Assembly (NCBI GenBank): GCA_002118135.1
Contig: BDIU01000290.1
Coordinates: forward strand, 62,001-126,000
Origin: Trebouxia sp. TZW2008
Lineage: Eukaryota > Chlorophyta > Trebouxiophyceae > Trebouxiales > Trebouxiaceae
Length of the DNA stretch: 64,000 bases
Reading direction: 5' to 3'
The first letter of the stretch is position 1. The number at the start of each line of letters is the position of its first letter. The position numbers and the translations under genes are program-made. The notes under the pieces were generated by a model, which made no database searches, was not told where the DNA came from, and saw nothing but the letters and a program-made list of their open reading frames with translations. Of this stretch, positions 1-64,000 are shown in pieces.

Positions 1-428
1 ATGCTGAGACAACCTTTTCTGTTTGGTTTACTACTTCTGTGGCGTCTCATGGCCAGCTTGCAGGCAAAGCCTCGATCAGACAGACATGACAGCCTCGTGA
101 TGCCTTCCTGACCTGTTTCATGCATGTAAGGGGCTGCTGGGACACATGACTGGCCTGACTAAGCACTGTACTGGCGCTGTACATCTGGTCAGTGCACCTC
201 TTCTTGCAGAAGTGGTTTCAGAGATCTCAATGCATAGCTCGTTTCTTGTAGCCAATTCGTGCTGTTGAGCATGAATATTGAGCGCGGCAAAGCTAATTTG
301 TCAGTGTTGCGAGTTGGCAGGCACCTCTAACAACAGACTGCATACTCATCTTCAGTGTTGGCATGGGGATTCAGTCAGCAGACCTCCCTGAACAGCAAGA
401 TAGCTTCAAATGTCAATATATGGTGCAG

Positions 429-1118
429 ATCTACACACCTGACAAGCTGAACGACCTGATGGCATCAAGTGACTACGTCGTGGCAGCACTACCACACACT
501 GACAAGACAGAGAAGCTCGTGAATGCTGAAGCTATCAGCAGTATGAAAAAGACGGAGGTCTTTGTCAACATCGGCAGAGGTCAGACTGTAGATGAAGATG
601 CTTTGATAAAAGGTGAGAGCCTTGCTGATTTTTTGTTTTCCCAGTGACAGCAATGCAGACATCAAAGAAGTTTATGACACAACACATCTGCACTCCTAGC
701 GGTCAAACTATTTATATACTTGCAGCATGTGCTTGTACCATGAACATAATTTTGCATGAGCACTCCAGCTTGTCTTACAGAGCATTCCTGGCGTCGAGAC
801 AAGCTTGTTTGCAATGCCCACATGGGACTTTTGTTTGCTTTGACTACTCACAGCAGGACTGCTGTGACGTTGCTGATTGAACATGCAGCATTGCAAGAAA
901 AGCGCATCAGGGGAGCTGCATTGGATGTCACGTACACAGAGCCCCTACCTCAAGACAGCGCTCTATGGGACCTAGATAATGTGCTGTTGTCGCCGCACTG
1001 TGCTGATCGCACCACTACCTTCCAAGCAGAAGCTATCCAGCAGTTCACAGATTTGGCAAAGCTGTATGTTGAGGGCAAAGACCTGTACAACGTTGTTGAT
1101 AAGGGTAGTGGGTACTGA
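429..1118 (+). CDS. D-2-hydroxyacid dehydrogenase family protein, C-terminal exons (5' part not resolved)
   Basis: These are the last two exons of an NAD(P)-dependent D-isomer-specific 2-hydroxyacid dehydrogenase (glyoxylate/hydroxypyruvate reductase or phosphoglycerate dehydrogenase-like). Exons are 429-612 and 889-1118; the GT-AG intron 613-888 joins in phase 1. The first exon carries SDYVVAALPHT and then NIGRGQTVDEDALIK, the family's substrate-pocket segment. The second carries RGAALDVTYTEPLP and LLSPHCADRT, the 'GAxLDVxxxEPLP' and 'xxPH' signatures with the active-site His. The Rossmann GxGxxG part must lie in earlier exons in or beyond bases 1-428, and I could not place them. The gene converges with the deubiquitinase gene on the minus strand. 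Family is certain; the exact substrate is not. Confidence 0.85.
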
Positions 1119-1402
1119 CTGCAACTTTACGCTGCAGCAGCTAACAGTATTTCATTTGACTAGCTATTTGGTACTCAATGTCAGTAGGGATAGATTTGAC
1201 AGTCTGTCAGAGCCAAGGATTCGGCCAGCCAGCGTGCCAACGCTGCCATTACTTATGGCAAACGTTGAGCCTTGATAGTCAGCGGGTGCTGTCTACTGCA
1301 TATTGACTACTTTTACTCTTGACAAAGACATTATTGCATTGCAAATTGAGGTTTGCCAAGGCCTGGTTGAAACAATGCTGAACATAGACAGAATGTTCAA
1401 GA

Positions 1403-4400
1403 CTAGAGGATGGGCTCAGAACCATGCCATTGCACTTTGGCTCGAGGCCACTTTGTGTGCAGCACATGCTCAAGAGGAGGTGTCAGTGCATGGCTGTTGA
1501 AACTTGCTGCAAGATCTTGGTCATGTTGGGCTTGATGGTCCAAGTCACCATGCTCAGTCAAGATCAACGAGATGGGCTGCTCTTGATTTGCTAGCCCATC
1601 ATAGTACAGTAATGTCACAATATGTTCATGGCCAGCAGCTGCAGCACTGTTCTGGTCAATACGCTGCTCTTCTGCAAACAATAAGGTGAAATGGCTTTCT
1701 GAGCAGACCACCCAGATTGGCAACAACGGCTCCTTCAAGTTTCTGCAGTGCATTGACACACCGTTAGCAGCGCCTGCATGTTGCATCTTACAATGCAACC
1801 TACTGATCTGCATGTGCCCATACTACCTGACTTTGGCGGGCATGCACCTGCCTAGTTCAGCATAATACAAAGTAGTCACGTCTATTTTGGGCATTACCTG
1901 CCAACCTGAGTGTTGCCATACCACTCAAACAGTGTTAGGAAGCCCAAGCGGGAGCGCTGCTGCACGCCCTTGCACATCGTGCCCGCCACGTCCTTCTGGC
2001 CGTTAAAGCAATTAGTGACGGCAGCACCAAACAACACCAGGTTCACCAGGTCTTGACTGCAGTAGCCGTGCGCAGCTATCAGGCAAGTATCTGGCTCATC
2101 CATGTCTGACTTGACCTGCCTGAACACAGATAGAAGGTCACGTTGTGCCCAAAACGTGTACTGCAGTCAAATCTAGTGGACTTGACCTTGTGTACGAATC
2201 TGCGTTGCTGTCACCAACTGCAGTAATCGTGCGTAGCTATGAGGCAAGCATCTGGCACCGCCATTTCTGACTTGATCTGCCTGTAAGCATGCACAATCAC
2301 ACATTCTCCAAGTCACAGGAGGTTCAATTGATGACAGCAGCACTGGTCAGGACAAGATTCACCAGGTCTTGACTGCAGCAGCCGAGCGCAGCTATCAGGC
2401 ATGTATCTGGCTTGTCCATGTCTGACTTGACCACCCTACATGCACCAGCACAAGGTCAGGACTGACTGCAAGCCCCAGTGCGCAACATTCCTTTTGGAGA
2501 CCAATACAGTTGTATGCCAGCGAAGTCGAGCAGACATCGTATCAACGGAAGTCTGTGACTTGAGTGTGTCACGACGCACAATGCTGCAGCAGACATTTGC
2601 TGTGCAAAGCGCTTGATTGGATCAGGCTTGAGGACTGCGTGATTACACACAGACAGGATCAGACTAGACATCTGCAGGACTTTGAACAGCCATAAGCATG
2701 GTCGACGACGAGTACAATCATAGAAAGCTCCAAAGGGCAGGAGATATGACATGTGTGACATACCTGATGCCACGAGTCATGAGCAGTGAGAACAGAAGCA
2801 GCAGCATGTTAAAGGCCGAATGCTTTTGGAATTGAGACAGGTGCTGCCTGATCTGCAGTTTACAAGCAGCAAGAACAGCAGCAACAGCATGCCAAGGGTC
2901 AAATGCTCCTGAAACTGGCTGAGCCATACACACCTGATGCCACCAGTCATGAGCACTGAGAACAGCAGCAGCAGTATGCCAAAGCCCAAATGCTCCCGAA
3001 TTGAGCCAGACACTGCTTAGACTGTCACATGTACAGCAGGTCTTGCGCCTCCATGTGAGCAGGTGTAAGGCAGCAGGATACCTGATGCCACGGGTCCTGA
3101 GCAGCGAGAACAGCAGCAACAGCATGCCAAAATCAAAGTACTTGTAGAAATGAGCCCAACATACCTAGTGCAACAAGCCATGAGCAGTGATAAGAGGAGT
3201 CACAGCAAGCTAATGCCTCAAAGCTCCTATAACTCAGCCAGACACACCTCCTTTGCAGCGCACAGCAGGTTTGTTGCCTGAATGTGAATAAGTGCAGTAT
3301 ATGGGCATGCCTGATGCCACGGGTCCTGAGCAATGAAACCATCAGCAACAGCATGCCAAAGCCCAGTTGCTCCTGGAACTGAGCCAAATGCTGCCTGAAG
3401 GCGCTTTGCACCTCATCTTGTGTATGACATTGTATCTGCACTGTCGACTGGCACAGCTGCTCAAAGCTGAGCCTGCTGGCAATGCTGTGCTTGCACACCA
3501 CTACTGCTGCTGCTGTTGCGCTTCTTGCCTGCATCATTAACAGACTTTCTCCTAACTTCATTAGCTTTCACAAGCAACCTGCTGGGCGCATCAACACAAC
3601 GTCCCACACAAGCTCTTGGCAAGATGGCAGAGACTGCTGGATAGGCGTCCTCCTGAATCAGACACTCGCTGCGCACTCAGATGCAGAAGATATGATTACA
3701 ACTTGCGGCCAAATTGCTTGTAAGCGAGTCTTAGATGTGGCAGCGTACAGGAGGACAAAAGACATGCATGTAAGATGATCTAGAAGAAACTTGCTGACCT
3801 GCCACACCACGGATGCCAAAGCTGTGACCAGCAACTCCTGCTGCTGATGGGTCGTCAGGTCTGTGCTATAGCCAAGCTGCTTGTCTATCATTGCTGCTAG
3901 GACATGTGTTGCCACTTCAGACAAGATCTCATGGTGTAGCAGCTTCAATTGCAGCAATACATATACATGAATGAGATGTCGTGTGACTGACCTGCCACAA
4001 AATTGATGCCAGAGCTGTGACCAGCAACTCCTGCTGCTGCTGTGTCGTTAGGTCTGTGCTGTAGCCGAGCTGCCTGTCTATCATTGCTGCCATGATGTGA
4101 GCCTGCAAGTAAGGTGCGTCAGATTCATCACAGTCGATGCTATACCGGTGCGGATGCGTCAAGCATGCAAACTGACATCAAGTGGCATCAATGTGCTGGT
4201 GTCGAGCTGCCTGTCTATCATTGCCGCTGTGATGTGAGCCTGCAGGCAGGATCTGCCAAATTTTGATCAATGCTACGCCAATGGAAATGGGTCAATCAGA
4301 CACTGTGCCCAAAACTTGTATCAATGGACACGCATCAAGCGGACAACACACTCCTGAGTGGCACCAATGCTCATGCATATCGTAAATGTCATGCTTGCAA

Positions 4401-6242
4401 TGGGCATAGAGAGCAGGCTGGGGGAGAAAAGCAACCTGCAAAGCAGTGAGAAGGCCACAAGGGCTGCCCTGGCACGGGCTAACAACTTCATGACCTGCCA
4501 CAAAGGGAAGAGGAGTGTAAATTCAAACACTTCACATAAGAAGAAGAATAGGAGCCTCGAAAGAAGATACATACAGGCTGGAAGAAGAAGAGTCACCTGC
4601 AGAGCGGCCAGAAGGCCACAGGGCCCGCCTTGGCGCTGCACCAGCCCAAAAGATAAGCCCGGTCTGTCAGAGAAGAAGAAGCCCTGTTTCCAGGAGGGCC
4701 AGGGCAGTTGGCTGCTCATGCCCTGCTTGCCAAACAGCAGCTGCCGCATGTCTGCCATCTGCAGCAGTGTCACATATTCACCCATCATGATCCTCCACAT
4801 CATGCCTAGCTTGACAAACAGCACATGCTGCATTTCTGCCATCTACGGCACTGTGAGACATAGCAGCCTGGGACCATGAACAAAAGCAAGCATATCTGTT
4901 TTACCATTGATCATCTGTCTCTGTGCTATCAGGTACCAAAGCAGGTACATGATTGGGACACAAACATACCTGACATGCTCAATGCTCAGTTGCAGGGTAG
5001 GGCATCAAGCATTACAGCATGACAGGATTCCAAGCCAAATGCAGCTTACCTCGCTGTGTGGAATTTGTTGCTGCTCAAACTGCACAGTGTCTGCAGGCTG
5101 CTGTGGTTGGCTGCCATCTGGTTGTCTGTGCACTAAGGTTTGGCTTGGTGCATGCTGCTCAGAGGTACTAGCATCGAGCATGTCATCTTCAATGTCTTGC
5201 ACAAACAAATCACTATGCTGCTGCGCAGGCTGGGCAACGCTCTGGGCATGCTGCATTGCTACCTGTACAAAGCAGAAACAGTCAGGTGGCTCATGTCCCA
5301 AGTCGCAATTAGGCATTCCTTGGCTTGCAGGCACACAGGCACAGCTACGATTGTTTACCAGCGTACTTCAAAGTGCCTACAATGACTGGTCAACCCAAGT
5401 TGCTTGAACTGACTGATGCAAGTGTGATCAGTGTAAAGCAAGTTGGTACATACGCAGCATACAATCTGACTGACAAGAGCTTTATCATGACCACAGCTTC
5501 AGCATTGTGGTGGCTTTGTTTGTGCAAATGACAAGCAGGCAGCCAGCATCATCAGCAATTACATCCAAGACTGGGTGGCGCCCCCAATTTGGTACAAGAT
5601 GTTGCGCACATTTTGCAGGCAGACTAGCGTGCGCCAGCTTTTGAACACCTGCCTGAACCATGCCTTGCTCTGAGTTGTGAGACTGCTTGTTCATAGTGTC
5701 AATGTCTTGCTTTGGGAATGAAGCTGCGTTCCTTGGCGCTGCGGTTGTAGAGCTTTGCGCTGATGAGCTGTGGTCAGACTGCTCCGCCAGAGGCTTTATC
5801 CTGTGGTTGTGAGACCATCTGTGCTGTGCGCTGAGGGGTGAAGACAAGCTCTGTGTGGTTGCTGGCTGACTAGAGTTTAATACCGCAGCAGAAATGCCAT
5901 CAGCCGTGACTGTGCTGCTGAGCTCCTGATTGTGAACTGATTGCACCTTGAGTAGCTGGTACTGCACCCAGAGCTCCAGTGTAGCTGTGCCAGCTGGGGC
6001 ACTGACCTTTGCAGCCAGCCTTTCCAGCCCAAGCCCCTTGCGCAGTGCAGATCTTGAAGAGATGGCGCCTGGACCCCTTGGCTGCAAAATTGCGAGGTCT
6101 TCTAAGTCTTGTGTTGCAGAGCCGACGTTCAGCGGAAGAGATAGGACAAAGCCAGAAAGCTTACCCTGTCACTGTCAAATGCTCTGAGAGTACCTTCAAG
6201 GGCATTCCTAGTCAGATACTCCCGCACCAAGCCCTGCAGCAT
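1403..6242 (-). CDS. MINDY4-like: LisH-containing MINDY-4-like (FAM188B) Lys48-type deubiquitinase
   Basis: This is a cysteine deubiquitinase of the MINDY family, which trims Lys48-linked ubiquitin chains. Modelled exons (minus strand) are 6242-6165, 6081-~5563, 5262-5050, 4758-4597, 4102-3992, 3528-3311, 2119-1898 and 1742-1403, about 620 residues. Residues 1-26 form a LisH-like helix (LVREYLTRNALEGTLRAF). A Gln/Ser-rich linker follows, as in human MINDY4. The catalytic cysteine is in QRQGGPCGLLAALQ (about residue 317). The last two exons carry AAHGYCSQDLVNLVL and PIWVVCSESHFTLLF (catalytic His), then YYDGLANQ and the terminal GSEPIL, all hallmarks of MINDY3/4. The end of exon 2 is uncertain (chosen by phase and GTAATT). 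The donor of exon 6 reads GC instead of GT. Several introns hold copies of exon edges. It shares a 5' region with threonine aldolase. Confidence 0.85.
2140..2440 (-). repeat. Diverged copies of the 5' edge of MINDY4-like exon 7
   Basis: Two diverged copies (about 2205-2290 and 2345-2440) repeat the start of the exon at 2119-1898, including the segments encoding AAHGYCSQD and the upstream SDMDEPDT-like stretch. They lie on the acceptor side, that is 5' of the real exon on the minus strand. Confidence 0.75.
2735..3110 (-). repeat. Three downstream copies of the 3' edge of MINDY4-like exon 6
   Basis: Copies ending near 2760, 2935 and 3077 repeat the exon end that encodes LLxxFSLLxTRGIR, each followed by a GT donor-like sequence. 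The full-length exon (3528-3311) instead has a GC dinucleotide at its donor, so the copies have better donor sites than the exon they derive from. Confidence 0.75.
3798..4250 (-). repeat. Tandem copies of MINDY4-like exon 5
   Basis: The exon at 4102-3992 (AAMIDRQLGYSTDLTT...) has a near-full downstream copy at about 3945-3800 that keeps its donor (WQ then GTCAGC) but lacks the acceptor. A short upstream copy at about 4201-4245 keeps the acceptor side only. The phase-compatible complete copy is the middle one. Confidence 0.8.
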
Positions 6243-6753: not shown

Positions 6754-9700
6754 ATGGCCCCGCCAAACCCCCGCAATAGCGGTCGTCTGCTGGATTTTCG
6801 AAGCGACACGGTCACTCGACCAACTGACTCTATGCGTCAAGCCGCTTTTGAGGTAACCGCTACCGGACTGCTCTCTTGTTCCTCGACGTCCGGTCACTGA
6901 ACATCTGATGGCAGGCTGAAGTAGGTGACGATGTTTATGGTGAAGACCCCACAATCAACCGGTTACAAGAGTATGCTGCTGAGCTCATGGGCAAAGAGGC
7001 TGCTCTGTTTGTGCCTACTGGGACAATGGGCAACCTCAGCGCTGTGCTGGCACATTGCCCAGAACGAGGCACAGAGGCAAGCGATCCGTCAATGCTAGCA
7101 AGCTGCCCTGACACAGTGCAGTGACAATGTCATCAGTCATGGTTATCCACATGCTTTGGCATGTACCACGTGATTGATGACTTGCATACAACTTTTCAAA
7201 CCTACAGTATGCGCTGGAACAGAAACAGCAAGGGACAAAGAGAAGAAAGCAAGAAAAGCATGGAAACGTATAGAACATACAACATGCCCAAAATCTAGCG
7301 GCCAAGGCAAGCTGCATTTCCTGCAGGTCCTGCTTGGTGACAACTGCCACATATACAACTATGAAGGTGGCGGCATCTCAGCATTGGGTGGCCTCGCCTT
7401 CCATGTGATTCATAATGAAGCCAATGGCGAGCTGTCTCTGGACGCTTTGAAAGAATCCATAAGGTGCTGCAGATATTGCTTGCTAGTCGTGTGCAACACA
7501 GGCATTTAGTACTCCGTCTGAGCTGGCAATAGCATTGCATGTCATCTATAATGCAGCCAACAGCGGACTGTCTTTTGGACGCTTTGAAGGAATCTATCAG
7601 GTGCTTCGTGTGTCACTTCCTGGTCTGATCCAGCAAGGACACCGGGTCTTCTGTACAAGCTAGCTTCATCAAGAGCATGATACCATGTTCTGCATGCCAT
7701 GAGAAACTGCAAGCAGAGCAGGTTGAATACAATAATCTCTCGATACAAAGACTGCACTGGTTACCAAGAGACATCTCGCTGCATTGAATTGTCCTTACTC
7801 AAAAGTACCACTGTAGTAGTCAGAATGCAGTGCTTGGTTCCCAGTTGCATTGTCCTTGCATCAAGAATGTCTTTATGTTGAGTGTCCTTATATCAAGAGA
7901 TCAGTGTATGTTGCTTAAGCCAGACCTTGGTGTCAAATGATGATATCAGCAGCTGGGCAAAGCTGATGAGTAGGTTATGAGCACTGCATCATTCTGGGGT
8001 TTTCTGGTCCTGATGATGCACACCGTCCTGCTGTTCTTAAAAGGCAGCCACAATTGCTGTGATGGCGCTGCACTTTCTCACATCGCTTCGCACCACTTTT
8101 GTGTCTTCCAGACCACGTTGCCAAGTCCACTTGACCTCATTCTCATACTTTTGAGGCCTGATGATGCACTCTCTCACACCGCTTCACACCATTCTTGTGT
8201 CATCCAGCTGAGACTTTTCGGTAAGACTTGACATCAGTCCCATGTCATGCAGGCCTGGCGATGCACACTGCTCGTGCAGCCTGGAGACTGTGACTGTTCC
8301 TGTCACAATAAATGACAGCGAGTCAATCTCTGGCGTGACTAGAAATCATTGTTCTCTAGGCCTGATGACGCACACTGCCCCATGACATAATGTCCTGGAA
8401 TCATTTGACATTGTTCTTGCGTATTGCAGGCCTGAAGATGCACAATGTCCCCACTTTGGCTTGCTGTGCTTTGAAAACAGCTACAAAGTCGTGCTGGCAC
8501 TGCACTTTCCCTTGGACTATGCAATGGTCTTCGGCACTGTCATTGAGTTAAATGTTTTCTGTGACACGACAACGCACAGCACTTGACATCATTCCCATAT
8601 TGTGCAGGCCTGATGATGGACTCTGCCCTTGCACTGGCTTGCTGTGCTTAGAAAGCAGCCACGACCGCTGTGGTGGTACTGCATTGTCCCTGGACTATAC
8701 AATGTCTGTGGCACTGTTCTTGAATTGTACCTTGTCTGTGACGTGACGACTCACAGCACTTAAGATCATCCCCATGTTTTGCCGGCCAGATGATGCACAC
8801 TGCCCCCATACTGGCTTGCTGTGCTTAGAAAGCAGCCACGACCGCTGTGTTGGTACTGCACTGTCCCTGGACCATACAATGTCTGTGGCACTGTTCTTGA
8901 ATTGTACCTTGTCTGTGTCGTGACGACTCACAGCACTTAAGATCATTCCCATGTTTTGCAGGCCAGATGATGCACACCGCCCCCATACTGGCTTGCTGTG
9001 CTTAGAAAGCAGCCACAACTGCTGCGGTGGCACTGAAATGTCCCTGAGTTTGCTGTCTTTGGCGTCCTTTCTTCACACAAGTTGACCAATTTCCTGTGTG
9101 CTGCAGGCCTGATGACGCACACTGCCCTCGCACGGGATTGCTGTGCTTAGAAAGCAGCCACAACTGCTGTAGTGGCACTGCACTGTCCCTGAGTTTGCTC
9201 TCTTTGACATACTCTTTTCACACAAGTTGACCAATTTCCTGTGTGCTGCAGGCCTGATGATGCACACTGCCCCCGGACCGGATTGCTGTGTTTGGAAAGC
9301 AGCCACAATCGCTGTGGTGGCACTGCACTGTCCCTGGACTACATGTCAGCTGTGAAGCAGTGGGCAGACAGTGTAGGCATTGCGGTGCATTTGGATGGCG
9401 CTAGGATCTTCAACGCTGCACAGGCGCTTGGAGTCAGCGTTGACAAGATAGCTGCCAATGTGACTTCAGTGCAGTTCTGCTTGTCCAAGGTGCACTCAGG
9501 ACAAAGGCTCCATGATAATGACGCTTGATCTCATGCTATGTATGTGGCCTTCCATACACTTGCAGTTGATTTACATGCCAAAACACTGTGAAGCAACTTA
9601 TGTTGCGCACAAACACAACAGGCCATGAAGGAAAGTCTGATGTGCATGTGGTCAGAATGCATGGGTATTGTAGAAATCGCTGTGTCCACAGCTTCAAGTT

Positions 9701-16785: not shown

Positions 16786-16787
16786 CG

Positions 16788-16840: not shown

Positions 16841-16858
16841 CCTGTTCTTGAGCATCAG

Positions 16859-49876: not shown

Positions 49877-52800
49877 CTATATCTTGCGCAAGAAAGTTGT
49901 CTCCTGCAACTGCCAGTATTTTGCGCGGCACATTAAGGTCAAAAACAGCTCGCATGACGCTTTAGCCGAGACAGGCGCCAACAGATTTCCTGTGAGGACA
50001 AAGCTACTGCCCACACAAACAGTTTCCAGAATAGCCCCAGAACCCATCAAAATGACTTGATACTTCTCCCGGAGACCCTCTTTCTGCAAGACAATCAGCT
50101 AATTGCAGTATTTGCAGAACACACAAGCTGCAAGCGTTTCTGCACGGACATCAGTCGATGTCGCAAGACATGCATACTATGCAGTATCCTTTGCAAGCTG
50201 CTCATTGAGATGAGTCACCATCTGCTGGTAAGTGTTGTTTTGTTCAGAATGCAAGGCATGCAACTCTTTCTGCAAGGAAATCAGTCAATTTAGCATTTGC
50301 TAAAGCAGAGGCTTGCAATTCTTACCACATGGGCATCAGTCGATAAAGCACATCAAAGGGCTGCAAAACTAGAACAACAATTCTGCCTTTACTGGACGTG
50401 TTCATCCACAATTTGAGACTCAAGATGCAAAGGGGGGCAGACACAATATGATGGTGTCAGTTGTGATGGATAAATGCATGCACAACATGAGACTTACAAA
50501 ACAGTGATTGCACACCAAGTAGCATACGCAGCGCCTCGCACATGCTTCAGCTTTTGCATATCAATCAGGTTATGGTTATGTGTTAGGCTCGTTGAATGGG
50601 TTGGTGCGTTTATTGATGTTAGTTTAAACTGTTAGTGTTGATGCAGTATTCACTGTTAGTATCGATGCATTGCTGGCAAAGGGACAATAGAACAAACTTG
50701 CAGGTACTTTGCGATCATGTCCACCAGGTCATCCAGAGCGGCTTGTCTAGTTGTCGGACCGTAGGCTAAGCTATCCTTTGCATTCAAAGCATCACGAGGA
50801 TTTGAGGGAGACGTGATGTAAAACCATCTACAACATTGAAATCGCTGAACATTTTCACACATCATGCTCTTGTGTAGCAACTTTGGTGCATTGCTGGCAA
50901 AGGGGCGATAGAACAAACCTCCAGGTAATTTGCGATCATTTCTGCTGGGTTGTCCAGAGCGGCTTGTCTGGTTGCAGGATCGTAGGCTAAGCTATCCTTG
51001 GCGTTCAAGATGTCACGAGAATTTGTGACGGCTGAAAGGTAGAACGTTCCAAGATTGGACAAGATTTGGTAGATGACCAACAGCAGTATTGCCCCCCATT
51101 TGCCATCAGCGGCCGGTGACAGTGTTGGGTTCAGGAGTGACGGCACCAAGTTCAGCCCTTGCGTTTGTAGGATCCTATCTGTCAAGGCGCCAGACAACCC
51201 TACAGCACAAGCAGGCTCAAGTCGTTGGTCGGAATCTCTGAGACAGAGGATGTCAGCAGCAGGCAACAGTGTCGGACTGAGGAGTAACAGGATCAGGTCG
51301 AGCCCTTGCGTTTGTAGGATCCTATCTGTCAAGACGCCAGACAAGCCTATAGGACAAACACAGCCGTTTTGTTGCTTTGGACCACTATTTGTGCAGATTT
51401 ACAGGCCATCAGCAGCTTCCAGCAGTGATGGTTCAAGGGGTATGGTGGGATGGTGTCTGTCAGGATGCCAGACAATTTTTCTGGACAAGCAGTTTTGCTT
51501 TGTTGCTTTGCACCTCTACTTGTGCAGAAACACAGGCTGGTCAGCAGCTCGTGGCAGTAGTGAGTTGAGGACTGACGGCACCAGATTGAGTCCTTGTGAC
51601 TGCAGAGTTGCTGTCTGCCAGAACGCCAGACAAAGCCCCATGACAAGCAGGTTTGTTTGTGGTGCATAAGGAGTGTAAGCACTAGGTAGAGCTCTCACGG
51701 TATAAGCATCCTGACGATTTGTCAGGATGTCAGACGTGCCTACAAGAAAGGCAAGCATGACTATATTGAGAAGGCAGGGGGAGAAAGTGTACAAATGAAC
51801 AATAACAAACACTGCTTCCTAACAAGAGCAGTGAATCAGCATTGCAAGTATGCTTGACATGGATTATAGCCATGGACCCTTTGCGCATGCTGGACATGAC
51901 AAAGAAACAATCATTGAACTGTTTTGCTGATTGGGCAAAACTTGAGCAAGGCAAAATAAAAGGCACGCGTGTTGAAGCTGTTGTGAACAATCAATAGTTT
52001 TCTGACACACAAGACATGTTTACCAGAATGCACAAGGCTTGGTCTGCTAAGATTCTAAAAAGTAAACCCACCTGCCACTCAACTGATTTGCTGAGGCGTA
52101 GATCGTTTGCAACTTACATCACGGGACATCAACAAACCCACCTGTTAGCAGGATTCCTGAGGTCAGCATCTGCATAGCTAGACTCTGCAGCAGGATTGTT
52201 ACTGCTTCTCGGGGCAGAAGCAAGGTAGAGCTGGGGTTGACCAGAGCCATGTTTTTTACCAGAATGCACAAGATCTCACCTGCCAAGATTGTGAAAGGCA
52301 AACCCACCTATTAGCAGGACTCCTGAGGTTAGCATCTGCATGGCTAGACTCTGCAGGAGGATTGTGACTGCTTCTCGGGGTAGAAGCAAGGTAAAGCCGG
52401 GGTTCACCAGAGCCGGACGTTTTAACAAAATGCAAAAGACTTCATCTGCTAAGATTGTGAAAGGCACACCCACCTATTAGCAAAATTCCTGAGGTTAGCA
52501 TCTGCATGGCTAGACTCTGTAGGAGGATTGTGACTGCCTCTAGGGGTAGAAGCAAGGTAAAGCCGGGGTTGACCAGAGCGTGCACCACTTGCCAACTCCT
52601 CAGCGCCTCTGCAGGGCAAGTGTGTTACGGCAAAGCTCTTTGTTGTCAAAGGACATGCTTTCTGAAGATATGTAAAGCTGGTGTTGACCAGAGCGTGCAC
52701 CACTTGCCAACTCCTCAGCGCCTCTGAAGGGCAACTTTGTTATAGCAAAGCAGTTTGCAATTGAAAGACATGGTTTCTGAATATATGTATAGCGGGGGTT

Positions 52801-55800
52801 GACCAGAGCGTGCACCACTTGCCAACTCCTGAGCGTCCCTGCAGGGCAAGTTTGTGATAGGACAGCAAATTTGCTGTCAACAGGCATTGTTTCTGAAGAT
52901 ACGTAATGCCAAGGTTGACCAGAGCATGCACCACTTGCCAACTCCCCAGAGCCTCTGCAGGGCAAGTTCGTCATAGCAAAGCTATTTGCTGTTGAAAGAT
53001 ATTTTGTGGATGCAGTGCATCACCAGACGCAAAACTTAATGCGCAATATATAACACACATTACATAGTATTTGCGAATACGCATCAATGAGATACAGTGT
53101 AGGTCGTGAAATACGCAGCACCCTGGCGTCAATATATGTCTTACAATAAGTAGTAAGTGTTTGGAAGTATCAATCACTGAAGATAAAGGTATGGTGATTC
53201 ACTTAAAATACGTATTGCTAAGCGACCACGTGTTACATAGCGCTTGCTCATCAGAACAAAGCATGCTGGCTGATGGGTTCAGCAATAATTTTGCAACAGC
53301 AGGGCCGCTTGTACAACATGTTGATTTTGACCGTGCTATTGTCCAAAAATGGGATGACACACCTCGTACAACATCCCACTGCCGCCCAGATTCATCATAG
53401 CTGTACCTTGGCAAGACCCCAGGTTCTGGATGAGGTTCACCAGAGAACGCAGGCGTATCAGTCGCATTCTGCAACTTGTGCTGGTCCACAGCCCGAAGAG
53501 TCAGAAAGCTTAGTAAGCTGCTGGGGGTCTGCTCTTTGGGGTTCTGTTGGGGCTGCTGCTGGGGTTGCTGGTGGGCTGGCGAGGGGCTGGGTGCTAGACT
53601 GTCTTTTGGTGATGTGGAGTTGCTTCTGGATTCCTCCCTCATCCCCTGGATTGAGAACTTGGGCAACATAAGAGCAAGGTCTGCACATGCATCAGCACTT
53701 GTTCACCAAGGGCTTAGACAGCATGAGAGCAAGGTCTGCACATGCATCAGCACTTGCTCACCAAGACCATGGGCAGCATGAGAGCAAGGTCTGCACAAGC
53801 ATCAGCACTTGTCCACCCTGGGATTAACCAAAATGGTTTGGTCAGGTCAAAGATTCAAACCCTCCAGGTCGGCCGAGGAAAATCAGAAATGACATTGTTT
53901 TGTTTGACTTTTCACAGTTGAACATCAGACCTCCCTACAACGACGCCCAGAACAAGCCTGCCTGGCAAGACAGGACTTGGGCCACAAACACTCAACACAT
54001 GTGCTAAATTGTGTAATTGGTATCATGAGCACTATTGTGATTGATAGCTGTCTCATCAAATGGGCTCACAAGCCACAATCATTCACTAAGACCAGATCTC
54101 AATACGATACCGATGCAAAATGCAAAATCATGGCGGGACTGTACACCAATGCTGCGACATCAAAGTAATGTTGAGCTGCATATGTTGGGTGATGCATGCA
54201 CTGATTGTCACCAGTCACTTTTCTGCTGATTGCTACTGGTGGAGGCAGCAATGAAGCTGCTGGTATTCACAAAATCTCTCATTATGATGTTTCACAATGT
54301 AGACGTTTTACTCCTTTGCCTCTATTGATATTCAATGGTGGTGCATAACCTGCGATGTTCATGTTGGCCAACATGCACTGACATCTGCCTGACAATCTAG
54401 TTGATGTGCCCATGGAACAGCGCTAAATTCATAGCAACACTTGTAAATTACTTTTGCCAGTCTGCAAAAGCTGCCATCAACTTAGCCTTGCTGGGAGGGC
54501 ACAACACTCAGACTGTCAGAAAGCGCTGGCGAATCTACTAAACCTGTCTTTCTGGTGCTTCAATTAGAAATACTGTAAAGACAGGTGGCACATGGAGACT
54601 CATATGGCATTGCTTACTGTGACCTTCAGTGACCTTCTATGAACCTAGCTGGTGCACAATGCAGGGAACTTATGCAGATGAAACAGTCTGAATTGCCAAG
54701 GACTCACTACACATACAAGTGGAATGGCGGATGTCAGACCCGTGCGCAGGTCAAGTGTGCTCCATTTTGAACAATGCAGATGATCAATGCACATGCACAA
54801 TGCAGATAAAGTATGCAGATGAAACAGTCTGAATTGCCAGGTACTCACTATATAAAACCAGTGGAATCGCACATGTCAGACCCGTACGCAGGTCAAGCGG
54901 GCTCCAGTGAAAATTGGCGTAAGGATCCATATGCAAAATGAAGCCAAGGGACACAGCCACGCAGCCTGGCAGCGCAACAGACCTGCATTAGATAACAGAA
55001 AATTGTGTCGAGTTGTTTTCTCAACTATGATACGCCTTAATGAAGTGTGAGCAAGCCTTGTGCTTGCGCTAGCAACACAGCCACGCGGCCTGTCAGATGC
55101 ACTTGTCTGAACATCAATCAACTGTAGCAGATGACTACAGCAGATGTTTTCTTTGGAGTCTGATTGTCTATATTCCCAACTGCATGTTTGCTTTGCAACA
55201 GATAGGTATGCACGAAATCAGCTAACTGCTAGCCTGCGTCATGAACACAGAAAAGTACGTCAGAAGTGGTTCTCACAGTGCTATGCATTTGATTGGCTGA
55301 ACCATCAGCCTGCACAATACCAGCAGAAGCTATATTCACTCCTGACAGTGTTACGCTTGGTTGGTTGAGCATTGTGTTTGTGCAGACAATTGTCGGCAAA
55401 AATCTGCCCTGTGTTTGAGGGCCAATCAGGATGCATTGCTATGTATTTGTGACAACTAGGGCCTGGCAGCAAGAATTCTTCATTACTTCTGAATGTAGGG
55501 TGCATTGCTATACAGTCACGTCCATTTTGACATTGCCAACAGGGACTGACTGTGGCTGAACGCAGGGTGGTCCAAGCAGAGCCTGGATAATGAGCACTGT
55601 TCGACAACATGAGTCAAAAGCAACAGCCACAGCAATAGCAACAGCAATAGGAACAAAAGCAGCACTAGCAACAGCAACAGGAGCCGGAAAAGCAGCAGCA
55701 GCAGCAGTCAACAGCAACAGCAACATCCACAGCAACAGCAACAGCACCGATCTGCTCAATAGCAGCAGCAACAGCAAGGGCAACAGCAAAATCAACAGCA

Positions 55801-56351
55801 AGGGCAACAGCAAGGGGCAATAGCAAAAGCAAAAGCAAAAGCAACAGCCACAGCAACAGCAACAGCAGTAGCAACAGTCTGGTGAACAGCAGCAGTAACA
55901 GCAACAGCAAGAGCAGCAGCAACGGCGCTTGGACAAAGGCTGCAAGTTGTTCTGCTGCTTACGTGATGAGAGGTTCGCCAAACTCTTGCCAATCTTGTTC
56001 TGCAGACAGCTCCTGCTTCAGTGCGCGAAGGTTTGTCAGAGTACTCCAATAACTCAGAAGCTGTGGTACAACGTCCTGGTTGTCATCTGGCTGTCCACTG
56101 TTGAAGCTACGCCTTGTGTTGCTCTCATTGGGCGTTTGGAAGCGCTTGCTTTTGCCGGAATCTTTGTGTTTGCTGGCTTCAGTCTGTTTGTCAGCAGACT
56201 TGTCCTCGTTCTGACAGCAAGTCACGGTGCTGAGATATTTCCGCTTTTGCTGTCCGGTGAAAGCGCTGTGTGAAGTTGCAGGGCGCACTGCTGACTGCAA
56301 ACCCCTTGAGGACGCTGACACCTTCGCACAGACAAGTCTGTCTGACTTCAA
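49877..56351 (-). CDS. Putative plastid membrane protein, CPBP (CAAX protease)-like, catalytic residues not visible
   Basis: Exons with consistent phase are 56351-55963, 54982-54882 (or 54888), 53680-53363, 52608-52474, 51199-50919 and 50083-49877, about 476 residues. The first ~45 residues look like a transit peptide, and a hydrophilic linker follows. Membrane-type segments are VALPGCVAVSLGFILHMDPY, FTLLLPLEAVTILLQSLAM, GAILLLVIYQILSNLGTFYL and VILMGSGAILETVCVGSSFV. Order and spacing recall plant plastid CPBP-family proteins (for example HWSPLDL and TGNLLAPVSAK compared with the family's HWS and ILAPIxxH), but the EExxxR and downstream His are replaced (SLAMQMLTSG; APVSAK). The family link is an inference at low confidence. 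Ladders of edge copies flank four of the exons. Confidence 0.6.
50700..50830 (-). repeat. Downstream copy of the 3' edge of CPBP-like exon 5
   Basis: It repeats codons for NAKDSLAYDPATRQAALD through MIANYL at ~85% by eye, ~210 bp beyond the real exon end (50919). Confidence 0.9.
51240..51680 (-). repeat. Three upstream copies of the 5' edge of CPBP-like exon 5
   Basis: Copies near 51240-51355, 51400-51490 and 51540-51655 repeat the acceptor (often CTATAG or GTCATGGG variant) and codons for GLSGALTDRILQTQGLNLVP. The real exon starts at 51199. Confidence 0.9.
52137..52400 (-). repeat. Two downstream copies of the 3' edge of CPBP-like exon 4
   Basis: Copies of about 165-170 bp period repeat codons for LVNPGFTLLLPxEAVTILLQ and SLAMQMLTSGILLIG plus the GTGGGT donor. 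The real exon is 52608-52474. Confidence 0.92.
52640..52975 (-). repeat. Three ~116 bp upstream copies of the 5' edge of CPBP-like exon 4
   Basis: Copies near 52680-52740, 52797-52860 and 52915-52975 repeat the CCTGCAG acceptor and codons for EALRSWQVVHALVNPG. With the two downstream copies, exon 4 is bracketed on both sides. Confidence 0.92.
53690..53815 (-). repeat. ~56 bp upstream copies of the 5' edge of CPBP-like exon 3
   Basis: Two further units after the real edge at 53680 repeat TGTGCAG acceptor and ACCTTGCTCTCATG-like codons. Confidence 0.85.
53949..54022 (+). repeat. Dispersed repeat family B, copy 5
   Basis: Contains AACAAGCCTGCCTGGCAAGA, CAGGACTTGGGCCACAAACA and ACATGTGCTAAATTGTGTAA. 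It is the most complete copy together with that at 29709. Confidence 0.7.
55604..55932 (+). repeat. Degenerate (AACAGC)n / (CAG/CAA)n microsatellite
   Basis: About 330 bp of AACAGC-type hexamers with point variation, in intron 1 of the CPBP-like gene. The long low-complexity open frames on both strands here are by-products of the repeat. Confidence 0.92.
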
Positions 56352-57570: not shown

Positions 57571-60500
57571 CTACTCCTCCAGCTCAGCAGGTGACTCGCC
57601 AAGCCCATCATGCCTTGAGTAAGGGTAGAATGGCAGGCGGATTTTGGAATCCTGGGGCACCTTGAACCCCCCAGTGGCTTGCACATTGGACCTTGGGGCA
57701 AAGTGGGGTGGGATGGGCCTCTTGTTGCCGTCACTTGCAATCGACCAGCGCAGCAAGTGGCGCTTCTCTCTTGGGGTCTGCATACAGCAGCAGAAGCTTA
57801 GGCCTCTGTGATCTGGACTTGCAAGTCAGCGGCCTGGACATTAGATTTGGGTGCAACGTGGGGTGAGGGATGGGCTTCTTGTTGCAATCACCTGCAAGTG
57901 GTGTTTCTCCCTTGGGGTCTGTACAAGCTCAGACCTTCCTGCCGTGAAGCTACGACAAGCAGTGAATCTCTGTTCATCAATGCAAGTCTGTGTGCCTGAC
58001 CCGGTGTTTATCAGGTGCATATGTTGAATGTCAGGGCTAGCAGCCACTACAGAGCATGTGAGTGCCAGAGTCAGCAGGTACCACAGAGCAAATGGTGAGC
58101 ATCAGTGACGACCAGAGAGTATGCGATGAGCATAAGTGCTAGCCATTGTCACAGAGAATCCTTTGAGCATCAGTGCTGGGACCATCTCAGAGCATGTGTT
58201 GACATACCTCGCCATCAAAGACATCTCCTCTGGAGTGGAAGATGGTGGCGTTGTGCACAATCTCAATGTCTCCTGGAATCAATTTCTTGGAAAAGTGGAA
58301 CTCTGGGCTCTCAGCCAACTTAGCTACAGCCCTGCAGTATAGCAAAGCAAAATCTGATGGTGTCTTGTAACCGCAACTACAAGTGATCGCTTTGAACCGA
58401 GTTTGTCTATAGCACAATCTCATTCCAAGGATGGCTGCTTCTGTATGCACCTAGCAGTGTAATGGGACCTCACTGGGGAAGCATGTCCATAATTGTGTTG
58501 TGTCACAGCAAGAACAGATGACTCAAGGATTAGTCAAGCTTGCATGAATCAACCTGGCACAGACACCCAAATCATGAGTGTAGTATGCATACTTGCAACC
58601 TGTTGAACACATGCGTATGTACAACTGCAGCCCGTTGAACACAGGCGCGTGTTCCCAGGCAAAAGCTCACAAACTGCTTAGACAGTATCTGATGATGGGG
58701 CGCAAGCAAAAACAAGCTGACTGTGACTGCTGTGGACATTGGGCGCAAACAATAACAAGCTGACTGTACCTGCTGTGGATGTTGCTCGGAAATGAATGCT
58801 GCAACAATAATTTTGATTTTGACTCACCAGACAGCCTCTTCTTGCAGAGGGGTGAGCTTGATGTCTTGATACTTGTTGGCCTCAAAGTGCACTGACAGGT
58901 AGCCGTCATGGTAGGAGAATGGCACCTGAGCAACACACCTATGTGTCATGCAAGCATCATAGACAATCATGCAAACGCTTCTGTGTTGTTACTGCAGAGC
59001 AATGAGCATTTGTTGCAGAACAGCAAAGGTACTGCAACAGCACACAAACAGACACATGCCAGCACGGCAACGCAGCAGCTACCTAACTCAGACGTCTGCA
59101 ATGTGTTTGCAGAATGGCAGCTTGAATCTACCAGCATAGCGCTTGCTACAGAATGTAGAGACATAGGACAGCATACCTCTTCTTCAAAGCCTGCAAACTC
59201 GCCCTGCTCATTGCGGTCGTAGGACTGCTGGGAAGTCTTGTTGGGCGTCCACCAAGTCTTCTTGCGGCTCAGCTCCTCAACCAAATCCTGCATCAGCAAC
59301 AGCAATTGTCGATCATTTGGTGTTTTGAAAGCTCGGCCTTCAAACAATTTTTTTACTTGTCAACAACAGAAACGACATCTTACACATTCCGGCACAGCAA
59401 CAGCATCTGTCAAGGCTTCATGCTGTGTGCAACTGTGCTCCACAGCCGTAAGCCAAGGTGTGCATTGTGTGTCACACACAGTCATGTCCAAGTGGCTTTG
59501 AATGTCAAACAAGCTTTGCAATATTAGAGCAACTGATCCACAGCAACTGCTGATCAGAAGGTCAGGGATTGATGTGACAGCTGAGACTTGAGCATGCAAA
59601 GGATTTCGCACTGTCCAAGTGTGCATCAGACCAAGGATCGACAGTGACAACAACAATCACAGTGCATTGATGTTGGCCCAAAGACATCTTCCTGTTGCAA
59701 CACGCCAGCTCAAGGTGGATGCCAACAGCACACATCAAATCTGCAAACAGCTGCTGCTAGAGCAGTGAGCTGATGTCACTGTGTGAGATAGTTGCTCACA
59801 TGGAACTGTGTTGTTTTGCCGCTCACGTGTAATTGCAACAAAGTGCTGCTCACCTTTCTACCTCTGCGCAGCAGCTCATTGTGGATGGCAACAGCAGACA
59901 CCCACTTGCTCTCCCCGCCTTCTGGTGCAGCAGTGACTGACAGCAGTGCAATCAAGTCTGTGGCGCCTTGGTCAGTGTGGAAGGCCAAACGTGACTTGTT
60001 GATGCTGTTGATGTCCCTTCGGGCGTCCTTCTTTTGAGCTTCGGCGCTCTGCTGCTTGGTGCCTACAAGCACAAACATGTTTGGTCGACACAGCCACAAA
60101 AGCCATGCAGTGGTGGTGCAGCCAGTTCTTATTCTGAAAATCAGCACTCTGCTGCTTGGTGCCTATGAAACCCAACGCAAGTCAGCAAACTGGATCCTGG
60201 CAGTGACTGACAGCAATGCACTGAAGTCATCTGTTGCTTGATTCCTGCAATCACATAAGCACTGTTGGCAGACTGACTTATGGCAGTGACTGACAGCCGT
60301 GCAGTGAGGTAAATGTGGAAATGCAACTTGTTGATGCTGTTGATGCTTTGGGCATCCTTCTTCTTGGATTGAGCGCTCTGCTGCTTGGTGCCTGCAAGCA
60401 CAACTACTGTTGGCAAACTGACTCACGAAGGGACTAACAGCAGTGCAATGAGGCTGATATGGAATGCCTAGCAGAACTTGTTGATGCTACTGATGTCCCT

Positions 60501-63500
60501 TTGGCCATCTTTCTTTAGAGCTTCAACACTCTGCTGCTTGGTGCCTGCAAACACAAATGCTGTTGGCCAACATAGTCACAGAACACATGCAAGGCCCATG
60601 ACTTTACCAAAGCTTCTTCTGAGCGTCTGCGCTGATCTGCTTGGTGCATTCAAGCACAAACAGTATTGGCAGACTGAACACACAACCATGGCTGACAGCA
60701 GCGCAATGAGGCTGATTTGGAATGCCAGGAAGAATTGTTCATGCTGTTGTCTCTTCTGGCATCCTTTTTCTGAGCCTCAGCACTCTGCTACTTGGTGCCT
60801 GCAAGCACGATCACTGTTGGCAAATTGACTCATGGCAGTGACTAACAGCAGCGCAATGAGGTTCAATGTGGAATGCCAGTAAGAATTGTCGATGCTGTTG
60901 ACGTCCCTTTAGGCATCCTTCTACTTGGATTCAGCACTCTGCTGCTTGGTGCCTGTGAACACACATGCTGTTGGCAAACTTACTCATAGAAGTGACTAAC
61001 AGCAGCGCAATGAGGCTGATGTGGATTGCCTAGCAGAACTTGATGTCCCTTTAGACACCCTTCCTTTCAGCCTCAGCACTCTGCTGCTTGGTGCCTGTGA
61101 CTGTTGGCACATTCAACCACAGCGTGCATTCATCAATGGTCATAGACATGCTAATCTGTTCAATTGATAGATCAATGCCTGATCGATCGATCAAGCAATC
61201 AATCAATGAGGTCAATCTTACATCCTCGGGACCAAACATGGGGCCCAGCAAACAGTGTCAGTCATGTGCGTTGTGTTTGAAACAGACACTCAAGCAGAAT
61301 GAGCGTCAACTCTTGATCACATTGTATGAACAAAGCACCTGTTGTCCATCTGCCCTCAGTCACATGGTTCAGCACAGAGCCAAAGAGGCTACCGTCCTCC
61401 TTGTAGTCAGTCTGAGAAATGAGGGGGCGGCCCAAGTGGATCCCCACCCCCCAGAAAGCCAGGACCAGCCCCAACCGGTCCTCCCTGTATTGCTCAACAG
61501 GAAAGCCCCTGCATCACAAATTGCTATCAGTAAAGCCACACTGCCGCAGCAATTTGAAGGAGAGATGAGGGGGCGGCCTAGGCGGAGCCCCACACCCTAG
61601 AACGCCAGCACCAGCCCCAACCGGTCTTCTCTGTACTGCTCAATAGGGAAGCCCCTGCACCACAATGTAATAAACTGACTACTGCATCATTTTGAGGGAA
61701 AGTGGGAGAAGGGGGGGTGGTAGTTAGTGGACCCCCAAACCCCAGAAAGCCAGGACCAGACCCAACCGGTCCTCTCTGTACTGCTCGACAGGGAAACCCC
61801 TGCATCACAAAGTGCCTGTTGGGTACTGCATCTACCAGCAGCATCTATGCTGCCAGATGCCAATTAGTAGGGATGCCTTGCAGCAGCTATACCAACATGC
61901 AGTCAAAGCTTGGTCAACCTTGTGGCGTGAAGTGAGCAGCACTGACTGTATGACTCACATCAGGGAACACTTGCCACGCCATGATCCTATGCTGTGGAAG
62001 CAAGCGCAAGACAATGCCAAATGCACTGAGATTGGTTTCGGCTTGAATATGTCTCCAAAGACCATAACTATGATGGCTCTGTATTCTGAAAGGCTTCAGC
62101 CAACAACGCACACCCACAGCATCTGCATCAGCAACAGTTCACTTGACGACCTTGAAGCCACTGCCAGCATTGACTTCCTTGCCAATCTCGACAAACTTGG
62201 GGCCAAGGGTTGGCAAGGGGAACTGCTCCTTAGTCAGCTGCAGCACCAAAACAACATCAGTAGCAGCTTGCATACAGATGTGCTGTTTACTCTGTTGAAA
62301 ATGTAACAGGATGCAAGCACATCCTTGAAGCAATGACTTTCATGTGCTGTTGGGTTTGCGCCGCTGCACCTAGTACTTCAAGACCTTGCATGCACAGCAT
62401 CAGGACTCATGGCTGATGCTAGATGTATGTCTTGACAGCACTTTGCCAGCACAATATAATACTCTGCCCTGCTAGCATGGAAAACTTGCAGCAAAGTGGA
62501 TCAGTTGTGATGCTGCAAGGGCAGCAGCACAGTGGACATGCAGAGCAAAGCACAACCAGGATACATCATGCAACCATGGCGTAAATCTGCAAGCTACAAA
62601 TGTGAGCGGAGTCAGCAATTCGACCGTTATCAAGTGCATCATCGTAGCTGTGTGTCAGCACTGACGCGGAACTCAAGTGGTTCAGTATATTGTATGCAGT
62701 GTACAGAACATTCACTGACTGTGCGGGATTGAAAAGTCTGACTGCAGTCGTACGTTCATGTGCACTGCAAATACCACAACCTGAGACAGGAGGCTTGCAT
62801 GGCATTGATCAATTGTGTGTGGCCGCATATGCTGACTGCAGTCATAAGCCCGAGCACATTGTAAGCGTCATGACCTTGGACAAGAGGCTTACGAAAGCTT
62901 GGCCAATTGCTTGTCACTGCATGTAATGACTGCAGCGTTATGTGATGTGCTTTGTAAGTGTTATTACCTTGAGGACATCCCCTTCAGTCTTGATACCAGC
63001 TGCCTTTGCCTTCTTCACTGCAGCTCCCAGCTCACTCACATCGCTCTCAGTGAAGTGGTAGGTGTACTCAGCCTCACGCCCCTGCATAGGAGAAGAAGAA
63101 GTATGTTACGTGATGCAGCCGACCAAAAAGGCTGATTGCGTCAGTGCTGTCATGTGGCAATGTGAGCAGCAGTACTGGTGCATATGTGTCCACCAGATTC
63201 AGTCAATTTGCAAGGGGTACATTGCCTAGCACTTTTTTTGCTATGAGACCACTGCCAGTGAAAGACACTGGCAAGTGTACTTTCTAAACAAGACATGATT
63301 TGAAGGTGCAGCAACGTGAGAATGACTGACACATGATTGCGAATTTGTGGCAGTGGCATAACATCATGGAGTAAGAGTGAGTATTCTGCTGTTTGCACTT
63401 GCAAGCAGCAATGTATGCACTTCAGTCAATGCGGGCTTGAAACATTGTCCTTGCATGTTGACAGGCAAGTTGCAGAACAAGATGTTGCCAAATGTAATCA

Positions 63501-63689
63501 ACATCACCCATGTCTGATCATCATTGCAAGCATTGCACTGGCAAAGCCGATAATACAGCCAGCGTTGCCACAAATTCAGATGTTGCAAAGCAGGCAGGAG
63601 TGCAGTGTACCTTCAAGTCAGCAGCTTTCCAGTCAGCTGGGTCGTCAATGATGGTCAGAGGTTCCACCTTGCCTTGTGGGCCTGAGTGC
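57571..63689 (-). CDS. TauD/TfdA-family Fe(II)/2-oxoglutarate dioxygenase (N-terminus outside the resolved exons)
   Basis: Non-haem iron oxygenase; substrate unknown. Nine exons join in consistent phase: 63689-63611, 63081-62968, 62237-62143, 61508-61339, 60062-59854, 59287-59177, 58925-58828, 58331-58208 and 57777-57571, about 402 residues plus a missing start. Early part: LTIIDDPADWKAADL and FPLPTLGPKFVEIGKEVN, GSGFKVVKGFPVEQYRED. The HxD iron ligands are in RLAFHTDQGATDLIALL. VSAVAIHNELLRRG and SYHDGYLSVHFEANKYQ follow. The distal His is in IPGDIEIVHNATIFHSR and the 2-oxoglutarate-binding Arg in EKRHLLRWS. The first exon starts with a split codon, so at least one more exon lies upstream, perhaps beyond base 64000. 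Introns before exons 4, 5 and 9 carry edge copies. Confidence 0.9.
57850..57935 (-). repeat. Upstream copy of the 5' edge of dioxygenase exon 9
   Basis: It repeats the ACAG acceptor and codons for TPREKRHLL ~130 bp before the real exon start (57777). Confidence 0.85.
60130..61100 (-). repeat. Ladder of ~7 copies of the 5' edge of dioxygenase exon 5
   Basis: Rungs carrying the acceptor and GCACCAAGCAGCAGAGTGC-like start recur near 60150, 60380, 60535, 60640, 60790, 60945 and 61085; the real exon starts at 60062. Some rungs also keep the part coding for RDINSINKSRLAFH. Confidence 0.92.
61560..61800 (-). repeat. Two upstream copies of the 5' edge of dioxygenase exon 4
   Basis: Copies near 61570-61660 and 61725-61805 repeat the GATGCAG acceptor and codons for GFPVEQYREDRLGLVLAFWG. 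The real exon starts at 61508. Confidence 0.92.
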
Positions 63690-64000
63690 CTGTAGTCAGC
63701 AGCTTGTTGTGATACCAAGTAAGACAAAACATCATGATCATTGATCCACGATGTGGCTGACAACATCAAAAGCAGTCAACGACAGTGTACAAGAAGTTGT
63801 AATGAGCTGCATGCATGCACAAGCTGCATTGTTCCTTCTGTTGAAGGACAGGGTGCAGCCAAAGTAAGCAGGCTAAATGCAGAGTCGTACTTCAATGTAT
63901 ACAAATGTGTGTGTAGCCTCACTTGAAAGCTCTGCAGTTGACTAGTGTTGGTGCCTGGAGGCTAGTACTTGATGGCAAGCGAGCAATGCAGCGAAACGTG
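63690..64000. other. Right edge of the window, upstream of the first resolved dioxygenase exon
   Basis: The missing first exon of the dioxygenase gene may lie here or beyond. I could not identify a start codon with a donor in the required phase. Confidence 0.4.

Follow-up and report, generated by a model that had tools for sequence, protein, structure and literature searches.

The window studied here is a 64-kb stretch of contig C275 of the Trebouxia nuclear genome, in which some introns carry serial, diverged copies of the edges of the exons beside them. We consider it likely that these copies are near-neutral leftovers of an old wave of short local tandem duplication in this genome, which lengthened its introns. 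The first-pass annotation of the window had reported introns filled with ladders of such copies in at least nine of fourteen genes, copies of 5' exon edges lying upstream of the real exon and copies of 3' edges downstream, with a ladder unit that always matched the local exon. These claims were examined in the window (GC about 49%, CpG observed/expected 0.42) and in a wider sample of the genome, which comprises 68,541,624 bases (about 68.5 Mb) in 527 contigs. Beyond the window, 19 stretches were taken at fixed contig steps (184,163 bases, two of them short), and 306,069 bases were read in all, window included.

The threonine-aldolase gene displays both kinds of edge copy, as well as a duplication that involves no splice site:

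7999..9251, plus strand: ladder in intron 3 (7464-9251) in which the edge scan detected nine copies of the exon 4 5' edge (acceptor plus first codons)
9252..9489, plus strand: real exon 4 (PF01212), identical to the same-species protein P0001
7532..7605, plus strand: copy of the 3' edge of exon 3 (last codons plus donor), downstream of the real donor after 7463, with GT kept and 84% identity
11233..11608, plus strand: end of the last exon, its stop codon and about 55 bp beyond, present as source and tandem copy, without a splice site (180 aligned columns, 88.9% identity, offset 196)

Eight of the ladder copies cover the acceptor site, at -145, -290, -467, -644, -822, -892, -999 and -1096 from the real acceptor, and the ninth lies at about -1243. 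The junction is spanned by at least 5 bp in seven of the nine, and the AG is kept at seven of the eight covered sites. The gene model matches P0001 (source label lgn) at 100% over the shared columns, except for a short exon (10573-10645) missed by the gene finder, and P0001 runs uninterrupted across all seven exons without any ladder copy. With a longest contig of 3,495 nt and a gene of 4.6 kb, P0001 would have to come from spliced RNA. The comparison, made at the level of protein, shows the nine-copy ladder being skipped in mature threonine-aldolase mRNA. The named relatives that follow P0001 for this protein are from Trebouxia C0010, Coccomyxa and Myrmecia.

To place such cases on a wider footing, genes were modeled with a small, self-made ab initio gene finder trained on actin-family and chaperonin exons from a Pfam search, which returned 72 genes comprising 404 exons. 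The median length is 114 bp for exons and about 320 bp for introns, and acceptors follow the consensus TGCAG. Pfam matches were obtained for 9 of the 10 window proteins scanned. A verified set of 13 homology-supported entries (12 genes), with 70 donor and 70 acceptor internal splice edges, was drawn from the window, its left flank and the loci L009, L010, L037 and L038. Excluded from it were the loci L011 and L012 and 6 of the 14 window models (four without a Pfam scan, one without a Pfam match and one with a weak GNAT match), and the proteasome hits, the AAA hits and all chaperonin genes but two were left unused. The labels ARP4, CCTz, CCTd and D27-like are in part names of our own choosing. 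One entry, MINDY34b, is a single repeat counted from both ends, its two 'exons' being copies of each other.

Probes for the edges took in at most 50 bases of exon and 20 of intron and were scanned against 2 kb to each side at a threshold score of 30; in 840 null scans of unrelated loci the 99.5th percentile was 28.8 and the maximum 31. In the verified set, 7 of 70 donor edges had a same-strand copy within this distance, every one of them downstream, and 13 of 70 acceptor edges had one, every one upstream. Copies thus lay exclusively on the intron side at all 20 copy-bearing edges of the 140. The cleaner count, without MINDY34b, is 6 of 69 donors and 12 of 69 acceptors, with the polarity holding in 18 of 18, and opposite-strand matches were encountered at 2 of the 140 verified edges. 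The polarity is weaker among the 836 ab initio edges of both types: 49 donors had copies downstream only, 9 upstream only and 16 on both sides, and 52 acceptors had them upstream only, 26 downstream only and 15 on both sides. Outside the window, edge copies occur in an ARP4-like gene (donor edge, copies downstream) and in two chaperonin genes. Polarity is forced by tandem geometry and says little about splice choice: whenever a tandem duplication spans a junction, it is the outer copy that remains joined to the rest of the exon. Separately, an actin-related gene on C4 (L011 3019-3421) contains tandem copies, at an offset of 116, of a segment coding GTVVDSGDGVTHIV, an upstream edge ladder that was left unscored.

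The edge copies are part of a far more general pattern of local direct repetition. Self-comparison of the window gave 126 direct pairs, of which 122 have a start-to-start distance below 3 kb and just 4 lie further apart, whereas inverted pairs number 6, whatever their distance. When all 306,069 bases are taken together, the count within 3 kb is 372 direct pairs to 6 inverted ones. Repeats cover 17.0% of the bases in the 19 sampled stretches and 22.8% in the window. Among 216 primary pairs the median period is 150 bp, with a 10th to 90th percentile range of 88-256 bp for periods below 600. In simulations, detection was near complete for units of 80-800 bp, poor below 60 bp and 0 of 40 at 40 bp; the scarcity of units above about 260 bp is therefore real, and the lower size limit is not evidence. 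Nucleosome-sized units were entertained and are not claimed, the periods centering on 150 bp yet spreading broadly. That the copies are assembly artefacts or chance similarities has a practically negligible probability, given that they mostly differ by 10-30% and occur in unrelated contigs, and that three first-order Markov sequences of window length yielded 0 direct and 0 inverted pairs.

Detected repeats are held by 21 of the 70 verified introns and make up 20.5% of their 31,896 intron bases. The introns that bear them are longer than the others (median 462 against 304 bp; n=21 and 49; Mann-Whitney p = 0.0003). In light of these counts, the observation made in the first-pass annotation stands as far as local edge copies, their polarity and their confinement to the locus are concerned, and its figures have to be lowered. 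Edge copies were seen in 7 of the 14 ab initio models of the window by strict BLAST, and in 6 of its 8 homology-supported genes by the sensitive scan, one of them weak (the V-ATPase gene, score 34, 72% identity). Likewise, 'filled' is a fair description of few introns, for example 7464-9251.

The manner in which the copies have diverged points to roughly neutral decay. Across 62 donor and 81 acceptor ab initio edges, identity at 10-40 bp from the junction is 0.80-0.85 on the exon side and 0.67-0.74 on the intron side, against a null of 0.50-0.54, which is a contrast of near a factor of two in corrected distance. The exon half of a duplication stays readable longer than the intron half because the real exon is constrained and the copy is free. 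From intron-intron pairs, the neutral expectation at non-CpG sites is 0.184 for two-sided and about 0.092 for one-sided change. Between real exon and copy, non-CpG differences amount to 108 of 1460 (0.074) at 0-fold sites and 64 of 358 (0.179) at 4-fold sites. Frame-breaking indels were found in 11 of 44 copies, and CpG is retained in 33% of aligned cases compared to 49-76% for twelve other dinucleotides. For these indel and degeneracy counts, exons were framed singly where the joined frame had stops; the first codon-position counts had skipped D27like, CCTd and ARP4, on account of stops in the joined frame, and omitted MINDY34b. Coding constraint on the copies, suspected from those codon-position counts, was largely explained by a neutral copy lying beside a constrained exon once CpG and degeneracy were separated. 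On these figures, the decay of the copies is roughly neutral.

A number of observations weigh against reading the copies as neutral remains of untargeted tandem duplication, and they are given in the following with the rival explanations. As regards placement, 21 repeat clusters placed at random within the same verified genes would be expected to give 11.2 edge, 7.1 intron-only and 2.8 exon clusters; 13, 3 and 5 were observed. The edge count speaks for untargeted duplication, and the shortage of intron-only clusters speaks against it. Coverage by repeats of at least 85% identity is 2.9% in predicted introns, 2.8% in intergenic DNA and 5.9% in exons. Without an identity limit it is 19.1% in introns, 19.3% in exons and 9.6% in intergenic DNA; introns then have double the intergenic coverage, and the equality of the two consequently holds for the younger repeats only. 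Furthermore, 200 circular shifts over whole loci gave 120 +/- 10 edges with copies (maximum 153), compared to 167 of 836 observed. We gave this control less weight, since it mixes gene and non-gene DNA and drops pairs at the wrap point, and since the ab initio exons include copies; its excess is ascribed, though this is not proved, to exon-biased detection and to circularity of the gene finder. The targeting of exon edges, which alignment ends and whole-locus shifts had suggested, received no support from random placement within genes. The duplication process does not seem to be aimed at exon edges, there being no clear excess over random placement in the verified genes.

These observations bear on splice-linked or RNA-mediated deposition, by reverse splicing or repair from spliced RNA, in which exon edges would be the target. 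The excess over the whole-locus shifts would accord with it, as would alignments that end 5-15 bp into the intron in 25 of 88 acceptor cases and 5-10 bp into it in 7 of 66 donor cases, and intron tails with little homology, seen for 21 of the 81 acceptors and 10 of the 62 donors. In the majority, however, homology continues past the junction: tail identity is 0.6-0.9 for 49 of the 62 donors and 58 of the 81 acceptors, where null values mostly fall at 0.45-0.55. Moreover, the number of edge clusters in verified genes is accounted for by random placement, and duplications of this kind also cover a stop codon and the interiors of introns. We consider this type of deposition very improbable.

The shape of the repeats is a further point of difficulty. 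Multi-copy arrays detected by Tandem Repeats Finder consist of head-to-tail units occupying the full period. In contrast, in 51 isolated two-copy pairs the alignment spans a median of 0.50-0.66 of the period in four identity bins at or above 75%, where simulated perfect tandem duplications give 0.96-1.03. A spacer resembling one of its flanks was found in 7 of 31 pairs against 1.6 expected by chance (the check took 31 of the 51, the others having spacers below 30 bp or insufficient flank). Either intron indels are larger than modeled, or many of the events were not clean head-to-tail duplications. The latter would fit templated insertion at short distance during break repair, rather than strict tandem duplication, with arrays arising later from spaced pairs. 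Such a process would account for the alignments that fall well short of the period, where simulation gave about 1.0 of it, for the 24 of 31 spacers that match neither flank and for the many Tandem Repeats Finder copy numbers that are not close to whole numbers. Against this, pasting in either direction should sometimes have put copies beyond the exon, in the next intron, while the polarity of 20 in 20 fits tandem geometry, and homology on the intron side is detectable on average. On balance we regard templated insertion as unlikely, and tandem duplication as the better account.

With respect to decay, the contrast between exon and intron sides does not behave uniformly: among the most diverged cases (n=36) it is missing, with 0.69 on both sides, and among the least diverged (n=31) it exceeds two-fold, with 0.93 on the exon side and 0.75 on the intron side. 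The difference at 2-fold sites (93 of 452, 0.206) is above the two-sided neutral value, the 0-fold rate is slightly under the one-sided value, and copies of one array are not independent in these site-class counts. The AG of acceptor copies in verified genes is kept in 26 of 29 covered cases, slightly above expectation, which leaves room for some use of the copies.

Such retention is what might be expected if the copies were functional alternative exon edges, used alternatively or in a mutually exclusive manner and held by selection. Over all covered copies, the core is kept in 29 of 35 against 25.8 expected from identity, and 13 of the 35 score no worse than the real splice site. At ab initio acceptors both core bases are kept at 0.94 against 0.62 expected, in a set that is biased in that both partners may be predicted exons. 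TGCAG is retained at 0.83 at predicted acceptors (n=188, the same bias applying), compared to 0.57 in antisense, 0.59 in intergenic DNA and 0.65 elsewhere on the sense strand. We did not rely on the ab initio AG retention: copies are among the predicted exons, and the measure is thereby partly circular. Differences between copies also show a third-position excess (0.229 against 0.163 and 0.126). Donors, on the other hand, lack any excess retention, with GT kept in 3 of 6 covered copies in verified genes and the core kept at 0.69 against 0.65 expected at ab initio edges. The 0-fold and 4-fold rates lie near neutral decay, frame-breaking indels interrupt a quarter of the 44 copies, and in three genes, at the level of protein sequence, copies are absent from the mature product: in addition to P0001 of threonine aldolase, the orthologues of a metallo-beta-lactamase-fold (MBL) gene and of a TauD gene have no extra copies. 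We find selection for alternative edges improbable. The copies concerned in these two genes are:

33025..33550, plus strand: three copies of the 5' edge of MBL-gene exon 33551-33814, upstream of it; P0121 and P0132 carry one copy
31743..31811, plus strand: single copy, 88% identical and with AG kept, of the acceptor edge that begins MBL-gene exon 31875-32097
61552..61801, minus strand: 5' edge of TauD-gene exon 61339-61508 in two copies, both upstream of the exon on this strand; the orthologue P0146 has one
60063..61100, minus strand: ladder in which the edge scan detected the 5' edge of TauD-gene exon 59854-60062 in seven copies

The related Trebouxia proteins P0121 and P0132 have a single MBL segment where the ab initio model chained two, and P0146 has a single TauD segment where it chained three; the matches of the two gene products include Trebouxia C0004, C0005, C0006 and C0009. 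A same-species MBL protein, P0122, follows the splicing of four exons and then runs on into the start of the intron that bears the ladder (window 32740-32886), which suggests a transcript retaining this intron.

Young pairs are scarce. Among the 195 primary pairs whose alignment covers 50 bases or more, 10 reach 90% identity, 3 reach 92% and 1 reaches 94%, the mode being at 75-85%. When shorter alignments are included, 9 of 216 pairs are at or above 92% and 2 at or above 95%, over merely 26 and 28 bases. Under steady formation, old pairs should not outnumber young ones at any rate of loss, and collapse in the assembly may hide near-identical copies but hardly those at 90-96%. We conclude with moderate confidence that formation was higher in the past, because young local duplications are nearly absent and steady formation leaves this unexplained; the assembly may have hidden some young copies.

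Taken together, tandem duplication as the preferred account would run as follows. Very many short local tandem duplications, most with units of about 80-220 bp and a median of 150, would have struck introns, exon edges, gene ends and intergenic DNA alike. Where a unit spanned a junction, the copy attached to the exon would stay in use and the other would turn intronic, each such event adding one unit to the intron together with one unused but working-looking splice site. Early copies may have been amplified into arrays, presumably by slippage or unequal exchange. With the copies decaying about neutrally and the real exon held by selection, exon-derived parts would remain recognizable about twice as long as intron parts, and exon edges are conspicuous because of this longer persistence. 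The cause probably lies at the level of DNA, for example in the fill-in of long staggered breaks with end joining or in replication slippage, and most of the duplications would belong to an older period. The proposal in the first-pass annotation that introns grow by duplication across splice junctions is borne out in respect of intron lengthening with the outermost sites in use (P0001, the MBL and TauD orthologues and the longer introns), and its focus on exon edges is not (13 of 21 clusters, 11.2 expected). A more far-reaching version is that a genome-wide pulse of about 150-bp duplication, since nearly stopped, placed copies that span the junction at roughly one splice edge in seven, became a main route of intron lengthening with a decoy site per step, and made of each duplicated exon edge a neutral clock in which a free copy stands beside a constrained exon; we offer this tentatively, and with more doubt than belief.

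Further copies and repeats were detected at other loci:

12998..13440, minus strand: three copies of the 5' edge of D27-like gene exon 12706-12918, by self-comparison and edge scan
3794..4244, minus strand: local duplication in the MINDY-3/4-like gene, in which predicted exons 3799-3865 and 3992-4102 copy each other, by self-comparison and edge scan
4716..4854, minus strand: acceptor edge of MINDY-3/4-like exon 4597-4758 together with its copy, by self-comparison and edge scan
26010..28332, plus strand: diverged local repeats in three clusters lying entirely within PrfB-like intron 25580-28396, with no exon edge, by self-comparison and cluster placement
37819..38829, no strand assigned: array with a period near 141 bp and about seven periods, without a homology-supported exon edge, by self-comparison
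52019..53002, minus strand: two adjoining arrays with periods of 166 and 115 in an ab initio gene (model only), from the Tandem Repeats Finder list and self-comparison

Elsewhere in the window, 55615-55923 is an imperfect repeat tract of about 300 bp of the CAACAG/AGC type. A long open frame of 357 aa at 47350-48420 on the minus strand looks leucine-rich-repeat-like by eye, and the doubtful last exons of the V-ATPase model overlap it on the opposite strand. On the minus strand at 20859-23315, a predicted protein of 456 aa has many SPRSA-type repeats as judged from its sequence. An Rfam scan of the window at gathering thresholds gave 0 matches.

Duplication across a junction is a simple and measurable route of intron growth, and the protein shows no trace of it while splicing keeps to the outer site. 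Introns with near-perfect decoy sites provide a natural test of how splicing ignores good-looking sites, and pairs of exon and copy offer a neutral reference within genes. Trebouxia annotations may contain spurious repeated exons, because in the TauD and MBL genes our gene finder strung copies together as if they were exons. The scarcity of young copies raises the question of when and why duplication slowed.

Several known systems invite comparison. Introners are genome-wide, intron-related insertions that are also found in algae; there, one element is copied between genes, whereas here each unit matches its own locus alone, as judged from the distances between pairs in the window. The copies also differ from alternative or mutually exclusive tandem exons in being missing from P0001 and the MBL and TauD orthologues and in their lack of clear coding constraint. 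The remaining comparisons draw on parts of the cited papers. Trebouxia genome papers (New Phytologist 2025; GBE 2024) give repeat contents of 9-16% and 12.7%, and in their main texts the word 'tandem' is absent and nothing comparable is described. In the literature looked at we found no description of this combination, in which diverged units near 150 bp in length take up 17% of the sampled genome, cross the splice junction at roughly one verified edge in seven and carry a near-neutral signature; this is not proof of absence. In Chlamydomonas and Volvox, tandem repeats are enriched in introns and near intron-exon junctions (PMC3887541). That survey likewise concerns green algae and tandem repeats in introns close to junctions, but in its available part deals mostly with short motifs and possible regulation, whereas the Trebouxia units are about 150 bp, few in copy number, strongly diverged, exon-bearing and near-neutral. 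Fill-in of staggered breaks with end joining yields small tandem duplications (PMC8355091), which resemble ours as local direct duplications of short segments without a need for homology; those were observed directly in cultured cells, while here the products are old and diverged and the cause is deduced from them. Tandem duplication as a source of introns is established from the potato RdRp and ATP2A1 cases (PMC4974935, PMC3443670). As described there, duplication within a gene brings in new splice signals and the protein can remain unchanged, as in Trebouxia; however, the outcome in those cases is a new intron, classically from an exonic AGGT segment, whereas the junction-spanning units described here would lengthen introns that already exist.

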